The translations under genes and the position numbers were made by a program. The notes under the pieces are model-generated. The model did no database searches. It saw only the letters and a list, made by a program, of their open reading frames with translations, and was not told the origin of the DNA. A DNA stretch of 46,075 bases from a virus, in IMG/VR virus record IMGVR_UViG_3300018026_000018, positions 1 through 46,075 of that record; one strand, written 5' to 3'. This document shows, piece after piece, positions 44,638 through 46,075 of the stretch (position 1 is its first letter; every line of letters starts with the position of its first letter).

Positions 44638-45594
44638 ATGCCAGTTAAAGTATCAACAATAATAGATAAAAAGGTAATTAAAGATGGTGAAGAAAAAACT
44701 CCTTCACAACTTAAAATACCAAGTTATATGATGAATTTTCCATTTAGTATGTCTACTGATAATCCTAATAATATCTTTATGCAAAGGGATAAAATGTCAC
44801 CTTTAGATAAAGATAAGGCATATGGACAATTTATGAAAGTATATAATTTTATGGCTTCTCAAGGTCTTGTATATATTCTTCCAACAGCAGAAGAATTTCA
44901 AGATTTACCATATATCGCAAATATAGGAATGTATCTTCCTAGTGATGAAAAACAAATATTTGTATTAAGTAATTTTACAAGTCCTCCAAGACAAGGTGAA
45001 GAAAATATTGCAGATGCAATGTTTAGATTAATGCGATATAGAACTGTACGTTGCCCATTTAAATGGGAAGGTGAAGCTGATTTAAAATGGCTTCATAATG
45101 ATGTTTATATCGGTGGTTATGGTATGCGTACTCAAATAGAAGCATTACAATGGTTTGAACAAGAATTTGGAGTTAATATAATTAAAGTTCATATTACAAG
45201 TGAAGAACAATATCATTTAGATTGTTCTATATTTCCATTAAATAGTAAAAAAACATTTGTATTTGTTGATAATTATAAACCAGAAGAAATAAAACAAATT
45301 GAAAAATATACAGAAATAATACCTGTACCAAAAGATATTTATAAATCTGATCCTACAAATTGTGTGTTATTTTATAATATGTTATTATGTAGTAATGGGT
45401 TAAATGAACTTAAACGTACTGATCCTACTTATCAATTAGAACTTCGTAAAATACATTTTCTTGAAGAACAAACATCTAAAAATGGACTTGAATTAGTAAC
45501 ATTTAATGTTAGTGAATTTGCTAAATCAGGTGCAGCATTATCATGTCAAGTTCTTAATCTTAATTTTGAATCATATAAAATACCTTTAGCATAA
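44638..45594 (+). CDS. Pentein-superfamily enzyme, DDAH/amidinotransferase-like, 318 aa
   Basis: The landmarks of dimethylarginine dimethylaminohydrolase/amidinotransferase-type penteins appear in order: an N-terminal MNFPFSMSTDNPNNIFM segment, FQDLPYIANIGMYLP (about 83-97), R in TSPPRQGEEN, EGEAD with E144 and D148, GGYGMRT with R164, YHLD with H193 and D195, and the C-terminal NVSEFAKSGAALSCQV with the nucleophile C303. The acidic-His-Cys set is complete, so an active enzyme is expected. Penteins cleave or transfer guanidino groups: arginine deiminase, DDAH (citrulline from methylarginine) or amidinotransferase; this reading cannot choose the substrate. It follows the giant virion gene by 12 nt and overlaps the next pentein gene. 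Confidence 0.75.
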   Translation: MPVKVSTIIDKKVIKDGEEKTPSQLKIPSYMMNFPFSMSTDNPNNIFMQRDKMSPLDKDKAYGQFMKVYNFMASQGLVYILPTAEEFQDLPYIANIGMYLPSDEKQIFVLSNFTSPPRQGEENIADAMFRLMRYRTVRCPFKWEGEADLKWLHNDVYIGGYGMRTQIEALQWFEQEFGVNIIKVHITSEEQYHLDCSIFPLNSKKTFVFVDNYKPEEIKQIEKYTEIIPVPKDIYKSDPTNCVLFYNMLLCSNGLNELKRTDPTYQLELRKIHFLEEQTSKNGLELVTFNVSEFAKSGAALSCQVLNLNFESYKIPLA

Positions 45595-46075
45595 TGAATA
45601 TGAATGCAGATTTTAAAGCAAATAAAGTTTATGTAGCAAGTTGTTTATTTGATAAACATCCTATATTTGCAAAAGAATTAGTTAATATATTTGCTATTAA
45701 TGATGTTAAATGGGATATAATACCAGGAACTAAAGAAATTTGGTGTAGAGATTATATGCCTATTCAAATTGATAAAAATAAATTTGTAAAATTTAGGTAT
45801 AATTTAAATTTAACAGATGGATTAGATAGTAGACTTGATGGTGATGAAACTATTTATGATGTTTGCGATAAATTAAGATTAAATTATTGTAAAACAGATA
45901 TTTATCTTGATGGTGGTAATTGTATGATTAGTGAAGATTCTGTAATAATTACTGATAAAGTATTTCAACAGAATCCTAAATATAATACTCAAGAATTATT
46001 AATAAAACTTAAAGTAATATTTAATAGAAGAATTTGTATTATACCACAAGAACCTTATGATAAATTAGGACATGC
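45594..46075 (+). CDS. Agmatine deiminase / PAD_porph-like pentein, partial (window edge)
   Basis: The gene starts in the TAATG overlap with the DDAH-like gene; a second ATG lies at 45600. The visible 160 codons carry the family's markers: W50-CRDYMPIQ (agmatine deiminase/peptidylarginine deiminase: W.RD.gP), D106-GGN-109 (family: [E/D]GGN), and LGH160 at the very end, the start of the GHxD catalytic block. The Cys nucleophile would lie beyond the window. The normal family length is 330-370 aa, so about half is present. Members hydrolyse agmatine to N-carbamoylputrescine or citrullinate C-terminal peptidyl arginine. Tandem coupling with another pentein suggests consecutive or parallel steps on guanidino compounds. 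Confidence 0.75.
   Translation, partial: MNMNADFKANKVYVASCLFDKHPIFAKELVNIFAINDVKWDIIPGTKEIWCRDYMPIQIDKNKFVKFRYNLNLTDGLDSRLDGDETIYDVCDKLRLNYCKTDIYLDGGNCMISEDSVIITDKVFQQNPKYNTQELLIKLKVIFNRRICIIPQEPYDKLGH

Follow-up and report, generated by a model that had tools for sequence, protein, structure and literature searches.

The DNA analyzed here (hereafter, the window) is the entire virus record IMGVR_UViG_3300018026_000018, which is 46,075 bases long and classed as linear. By the similarity of its large terminase, 45% identical to that of the uncultured phage cr127_1 (Crassvirales, Crevaviridae, Kahucivirus), the window genome is crAss-like. At its end, two genes encoding large, virion-type proteins (931 and 2190 aa) are followed by p1 and p2 (Table 1). 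The initial annotation had described p1 and p2 as adjacent genes with a TAATG overlap, following the genes of ejected proteins. This arrangement and the coordinates of both genes were verified, and all the motifs listed for them are present: EGEAD, GMRT, YHLD, and Cys303 in p1, with GMRT at residues 162 to 165, and WCRDYMP, DGGN, and GH in p2.

Table 1. Features of the p1/p2 locus, in window coordinates.
Feature	Position	Strand	Basis or remark
p1, ArgZ/AgrE-like pentein (arginine dihydrolase-type), 318 aa	44638..45594	+	NCBIfam, phrog_12759, PDB sequence and fold matches
p1 Asn95 (aligns with ArgZ/AgrE Asn71)	44920..44922	+	Alignments to ArgZ/AgrE and relatives
p1 EGEAD, guanidine-binding acids, residues 144–148	45067..45081	+	Motif, conserved in relatives
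p1 YHLD with catalytic His193, residues 192–195	45211..45222	+	Motif, conserved in relatives
p1 predicted nucleophile Cys303 (ArgZ Cys264)	45544..45546	+	Invariant in relatives
TAATG stop/start overlap of p1 and p2	45592..45596	+	Final A of the p1 TAA doubles as first base of the p2 ATG
p2, PF04371 pentein (agmatine deiminase/Porphyromonas-type PAD family), first 160 aa	45594..46075	+	Open at the contig end
p2 WCRDYMP, residues 50–56	45741..45761	+	Kept in bacterial and phage relatives
p2 DGGN, residues 106–109	45909..45920	+	Kept in relatives
p2 GH (residues 159–160), start of GHxD block	46068..46073	+	Remainder beyond the contig; GH[AST]D in relatives

Since the GC content, GC3, and codon usage of p1 and p2 match those of the remaining window (codon scores of 0.57 and 0.63 for the two genes versus 0.48 to 0.60 elsewhere), both genes look resident, and the check for chimerism suggested by the initial annotation revealed no sign of it. 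When the final 32 bases of the window were matched exactly against viral contigs, no overlapping sequence emerged from which p2 might be completed. Three close kin recognized by the capsid gene (L040 to L042) are short fragments that do not extend to the p1/p2 region. The initial annotation had also proposed a survey of related crAss-like genomes for the gene pair. Two relatives with capsids 44 to 45% identical to that of the window (L044 and L045) contain no match to p1 or PF04371, and, among the matches listed, p1 occurs in no Crassvirales record of a phage collection comprising 50,697 records; the matches listed are from Campylobacter phages and Bacteroides DAC/SJC phages.

p1 resembles cyanobacterial arginine dihydrolases

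No Pfam family matched p1 above its cut-off. In NCBIfam, the arginine dihydrolase profile (Arg_dihydro) matched at 1.4e-17, with 63.9 bits versus the NF052232 equivalog cut-off of 450; p1 is therefore referred to as ArgZ-like and is not filed as an equivalog member. The dimethylargininase (DDAH) profile, whose use had been recommended earlier, did match p1, but less well than Arg_dihydro (1.6e-16) and, at 60.4 bits, below the NF045659 cut-off of 300. The phage family phrog_12759 matched at 2e-46. A phmmer search of the Protein Data Bank (PDB) with p1 retrieved ArgZ and AgrE chains only, and a profile built from diverse phage p1 proteins likewise matched only these chains at E < 0.01 (2e-25 to 3e-22).

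The AlphaFold model of p1 (pLDDT of 79) has the five-bladed α/β propeller fold of penteins. Its best Foldseek match was to ArgZ/AgrE (2e-18), and superposition yielded a Z score of 28 and an rmsd of 2.2 to 2.6 Å over 246 to 257 residues at ~20% identity. The next-best folds, SxtG, AstB, and DDAH, scored at Z of about 23 (at most 23.4); arginine deiminase, AGAT, and agmatine deiminase ranked further down. Among BFVD viral models, the only matches at E below 0.001 were one unnamed protein and two phage proteins annotated as amidinotransferases.

Among p1 relatives, Cys303, His193, and Glu144 are invariant, and Asp148 is present in all but one. The asparagine of ArgZ at position 71, which we take to be required for the second hydrolysis, is replaced by aspartate in DDAH. 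When 35 phage and 20 bacterial relatives were aligned, every one of them had Asn at the position of p1 Asn95. The PDB title of entry 6juz describes ArgZ N71S covalently bound to a reaction intermediate.

By sequence and predicted fold, p1 is thus closest to the cyanobacterial arginine dihydrolases ArgZ (Sll1336) and AgrE (Alr4995), with which it has in common the pentein fold and the catalytic residues, including the equivalents of Asn71 and Cys264. The earlier assignment of p1 to penteins is upheld, while the simple label "DDAH/amidinotransferase" is not. Unlike ArgZ and AgrE, which carry an ornithine cyclodeaminase half, phage p1 proteins are single-domain, and their genes are partnered with one from a pyruvoyl decarboxylase family (see below).

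A homolog of p1 has long been annotated as "amidinotransferase" in records of Campylobacter Fletchervirus, so p1 alone is already known in phages. The Fletchervirus protein (phrog_12759) and its homolog from DAC19-type Bacteroides phages are 36% identical to p1 over 90% of its length; in contrast to the window, neither has an adjoining p2. In the p1 tree, the phage proteins cluster together, separated from every bacterial relative except one, and p1 of the window clusters with the proteins of DAC19 and of phages with three-gene modules (82/80 support). A phage-type p1 was also observed in a Bacteroidota genome (L311:1492-2394; E of 1e-100), with a different neighbor gene and the decarboxylase absent from the 3.9 kb covered.

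The p2 family is nearer agmatine deiminases than PPAD

The p2 fragment matched PF04371, which the initial annotation had named as the profile to try, at 27.7 bits (Pfam gathering cut-off of 25), and full-length relatives scored 71 to 90 bits. No NCBIfam family matched the window fragment, which is half a protein. A scan with the single p2 sequence found no relatives, and an alignment-based search was needed to reveal them: it yielded 422 confirmed candidates in genome contigs, mostly from Bacteroidota. WxRDYMP, DGGN, and GHxD are found in nearly all of them. The GHxD block and the Cys block are both present in full-length relatives, while p2 of the window ends at GH.

A profile of the p2 family built from phage and bacterial members matched the agmatine deiminases 6b10, 3hvm, and 2jer at 8e-16 to 6e-21, whereas Porphyromonas PPAD was matched only at 4e-5. 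As judged from these profile matches, the p2 family is nearer agmatine deiminases than the protein-citrullinating PPAD. Agmatine deiminases (AguA/AIH; 6b10 is from C. jejuni and 3hvm from H. pylori) and full-length p2 relatives have in common PF04371 and the WxRD..P, DGGN, and GHxD/Cys motifs. However, phage p2 relatives are shorter (287 to 300 aa), and full-length relatives score just 31 to 45 bits against the AguA profile TIGR03380, whose equivalog cut-off is 381.8.

In the p2 tree, the window sequence has a long branch and is placed closer to bacterial sequences than to the clade of p2 from three-gene modules, but its grouping with that clade was not rejected (AU p of 0.139, 160 columns). 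No constant partner was found among the neighbors of bacterial p2-like genes. The sole p2 match in the phage collection was MT836602 (L039), in which a 514-aa open reading frame ends in a complete PF04371 domain. Although the record (MT836602.1) is named "Bacteriophage sp.," it looks more like a conjugative element than a phage, as its open reading frames include a TraG-like one, transposon-type ones, and one for a reverse transcriptase of a group II intron. A lone p2 was observed between terminase-like and portal-like genes in L057:2527-3429; there, DGGG replaces DGGN.

A decarboxylase-family gene accompanies p1 in viral genomes

When all viral loci were taken together, 115 distinct viral p1 genes had enough flanking sequence for analysis. 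A gene of the phosphatidylserine decarboxylase (PSD) family, PF02666, lies directly downstream of p1 in 113 of them, and in 92 of the 115, the two are joined by a one-base TAATG-type overlap. In one exception (L170), the PF02666 reading frame begins ~1 kb downstream of p1 and is cut by the contig end. The other is the complete genome of Fletchervirus NCTC12673, where both genes are present but far apart. A Hef-type homing endonuclease gene overlaps the PSD-like gene of Fletchervirus (L056:3203-5387; GU296433.1 75202-77386) and is annotated so in many listed Fletchervirus genomes; this overlap might explain the separation of the PSD-like gene from p1.

In the phage collection, p1 was found in 46 records and the decarboxylase in 45, and the two co-occur in 40 of 40 p1 records among the matches listed. 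Since these p1 records come from only two lineages, Campylobacter Fletchervirus and DAC19-type Bacteroides phages (167 to 179 kb), the numbers are counts of genomes and not of independent events. Most p1 homologs from IMG/VR belong to T4-like phages with the gene order gp21 protease–gp23 capsid–p1–PF02666–PhoH. Two metabolic genes thus sit within a block of head genes, the p1-PF02666 pair lying between gp23 and phoH (L002 to L036; for example, L012:4257-7661). At most, the location of p1 directly behind gp23 fits late expression.

Phage PF02666 proteins are ~240 aa long and score 60 to 115 bits versus a cut-off of 22. With small variations, they retain PADG, the DVH..R.P block, and the Gly-Ser self-cleavage site. 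Only ~22 residues precede the conserved domain, versus ~59 in E. coli PSD, so they lack the greater part of the segment N-terminal to the catalytic domain in the E. coli enzyme. The best fold match of the phage decarboxylase model was E. coli PSD (7e-6), followed by PsiD, an L-tryptophan decarboxylase (5e-3). Since PsiD belongs to the same family and acts on a free amino acid, it provides a precedent for a phage PF02666 enzyme with such a substrate. In PHROGs, p1 (phrog_12759) and the decarboxylase (phrog_12670) are each listed as being of unknown function.

The three genes occur together in eight IMG/VR contigs, six of them distinct, which were revealed by the alignment-based p2 search and subsequent p1 and decarboxylase scans. 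The order is p1-decarboxylase-p2 in L062, L145, L146/L147 (identical p1), and L302/L303 (identical p1) and p1-p2-decarboxylase in L228 and L061, the latter with an extra gene between p1 and p2. The extra gene, located between a p1 remnant and p2 (L061:227-1066), is homing endonuclease–like, with a GIY-YIG look by eye. The recurrence of the three genes means that the p1/p2 pair of the window is not a one-off. The two coupled penteins proposed by the initial annotation therefore stand; as a two-gene cassette, however, the set was incomplete, since relatives usually have the PF02666 gene as the third member.

The T4-like p1-PF02666 pairs and the modules of L062, L145, L147, L302, and L228 have in common with the window the gene families and an operon-like spacing, often with TAATG. 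The window differs in being crAss-like, in ending inside p2, and in that its decarboxylase is only predicted. No PF02666 match was found within its 46,075 bases, and its sequence breaks off within p2, just where a following gene would be expected to start. Given the p1-PF02666 linkage and the three-gene contigs, a decarboxylase gene is predicted just past position 46075.

Discussion

Our results suggest that the p1/p2 pair most likely serves metabolism and belongs to a larger module that recurs in phages and includes a decarboxylase. The gene set probably represents an undescribed phage metabolic pathway leading from arginine to polyamine precursors. The initial annotation had listed changes in arginine or agmatine pools and polyamine supply among several possible roles; this role fits best, as the p2 profile prefers agmatine deiminases and the partner of p1 belongs to a decarboxylase family. 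That the end of the window is part of an arginine-to-polyamine module with a predicted decarboxylase is the reading we favor, at slightly under even confidence, the substrates being deduced.

Of this module, the window would hold all of the first gene, p1, and about half of the second, p2, with a predicted PF02666 pyruvoyl enzyme, acting on a free amino acid, encoded beyond the contig. By the most likely route, p1 would remove the guanidino carbon of arginine to give ornithine, CO2, and ammonia, and the pyruvoyl enzyme would decarboxylate ornithine to putrescine. In the other possible route, arginine would first be converted to agmatine by the pyruvoyl enzyme, and p1, p2, or both would process agmatine toward putrescine; p2 would convert agmatine to N-carbamoylputrescine. 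On both routes, phage genes would raise the diamine pool and ammonia would be released, probably late in infection. Gene content, catalytic residues, the predicted fold of p1, and the decarboxylase linkage in relatives are observations; the decarboxylase of the window, every substrate, the order of steps, the timing, and the benefit are inferred.

Searches of 19 phage records, in which controls worked, found no PLP-dependent ornithine or arginine decarboxylase of the PF02784 fold, which leaves the PSD-like enzyme as the sole decarboxylase candidate found. SpeD, SpeE, and N-carbamoylputrescine hydrolase (CN_hydrolase) were likewise not found in these records; the product of p2 would thus need host enzymes, and steps past putrescine would be the host's. 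Several points count against the proposed pathway. In most characterized cases, the substrate of PSD-family enzymes is a lipid, the window itself shows no decarboxylase gene, its p2 does not cluster clearly with the p2 proteins of the modules, and the scores of p1 and of p2 relatives are far from the NCBIfam equivalog cut-offs for arginine dihydrolase and AguA, respectively.

The alternative that survives best, although we consider it unlikely, is that the PSD-like gene encodes a genuine phosphatidylserine decarboxylase acting to remodel the membrane of the host, with p1 and p2 sharing its transcript but serving a different end, for instance nitrogen release. PF02666 membership and the closeness of the fold to E. 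coli PSD agree with such a function, and a published survey (PMC11360552) discusses PSD and PssA among the lipid genes of marine viruses. However, it would be unusual for a lipid enzyme to be paired almost constantly with a guanidine-modifying enzyme across several groups of phages, and the shortened N terminus of the phage proteins also argues against it.

Next, and also improbable in our view, only p1 may derive from an old phage module, with p2 captured separately from a Bacteroidota host for unrelated work. The long branch of the window p2 near bacterial sequences speaks for such a capture; yet the tree does not reject its grouping with module p2, and L228 has the order p1-p2-decarboxylase, as does L061 apart from its insert.

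We give little credence to arginine catabolism as such, with no polyamine aim, whereby the phage would drain arginine, produce ammonia and CO2, affect pH or nitrogen supply, or deny arginine to host defense. ArgZ-type chemistry frees two ammonia per arginine, which counts in favor of catabolism, and p2 adds another deiminase, but the constant decarboxylase partner is left unexplained.

It is quite doubtful that p1 is an amidinotransferase or amidine hydrolase in a pathway that makes modified metabolites or DNA bases. Amidinotransferases do belong to the pentein fold, and dADG-modified DNA has been reported for Campylobacter phages (PMC6884629), with Fletchervirus having p1. The predicted structure of p1 is nevertheless nearer dihydrolases than amidinotransferases, and QueC (PF06508) turned up in just 2 of 15 records with p1 or p2 and is absent from the complete DAC19 genome. 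Since QueC is also absent from NCTC12673, this marker alone is not decisive.

The weakest reading, citrullination of host or virion proteins by p1 and p2, had been raised by the initial annotation and is very unlikely: while PF04371 takes its name from a peptidyl-arginine deiminase, the p2 profile favors agmatine deiminases over PPAD, and the genes are linked to a pyruvoyl decarboxylase family, the constant partner of p1, and not to protein-processing genes.

The arginine-to-polyamine reading can be compared with what has been reported for viruses. The idea that viruses raise putrescine or agmatine is common to our proposal and to the account of virus-encoded polyamine enzymes (PMC9992855), in which pyruvoyl ODC/ADC are known; these are AdoMetDC-derived, unlike the PSD-family candidate. 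That survey found no AIH outside chloroviruses and no arginase in phages, and dihydrolases and PSD-family enzymes are absent from its account. A putative glycine amidinotransferase was described in CP220/CPt10 in 2010 (PMC2853527), and a survey of marine auxiliary metabolic genes (PMC11360552) treats psd as a lipid gene and, separately, creatine genes as such. No paper linking a phage pentein with a PSD-family decarboxylase was found in the full-text literature covered, a scope that leaves out most subscription journals. In the literature covered, the linked set thus appears undescribed, whereas p1 alone was already known.

More tentatively, we propose that distinct phage groups share a so far undescribed arginine-to-diamine pathway composed of an ArgZ-like dihydrolase and a PSD-family enzyme that has been converted into a pyruvoyl ornithine or arginine decarboxylase, to which some phages, including that of the window, have added an agmatine deiminase–type pentein. 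The proposal gives phrog_12759 and phrog_12670, two phage families of unknown function, a joint and directly testable assignment. If true, it would extend ornithine/arginine decarboxylation to a new enzyme fold, place agmatine deiminase–type enzymes in phages, for which a targeted survey had reported none, and point to one metabolic demand common to Campylobacter, Bacteroides, T4-like, and crAss-like phages.
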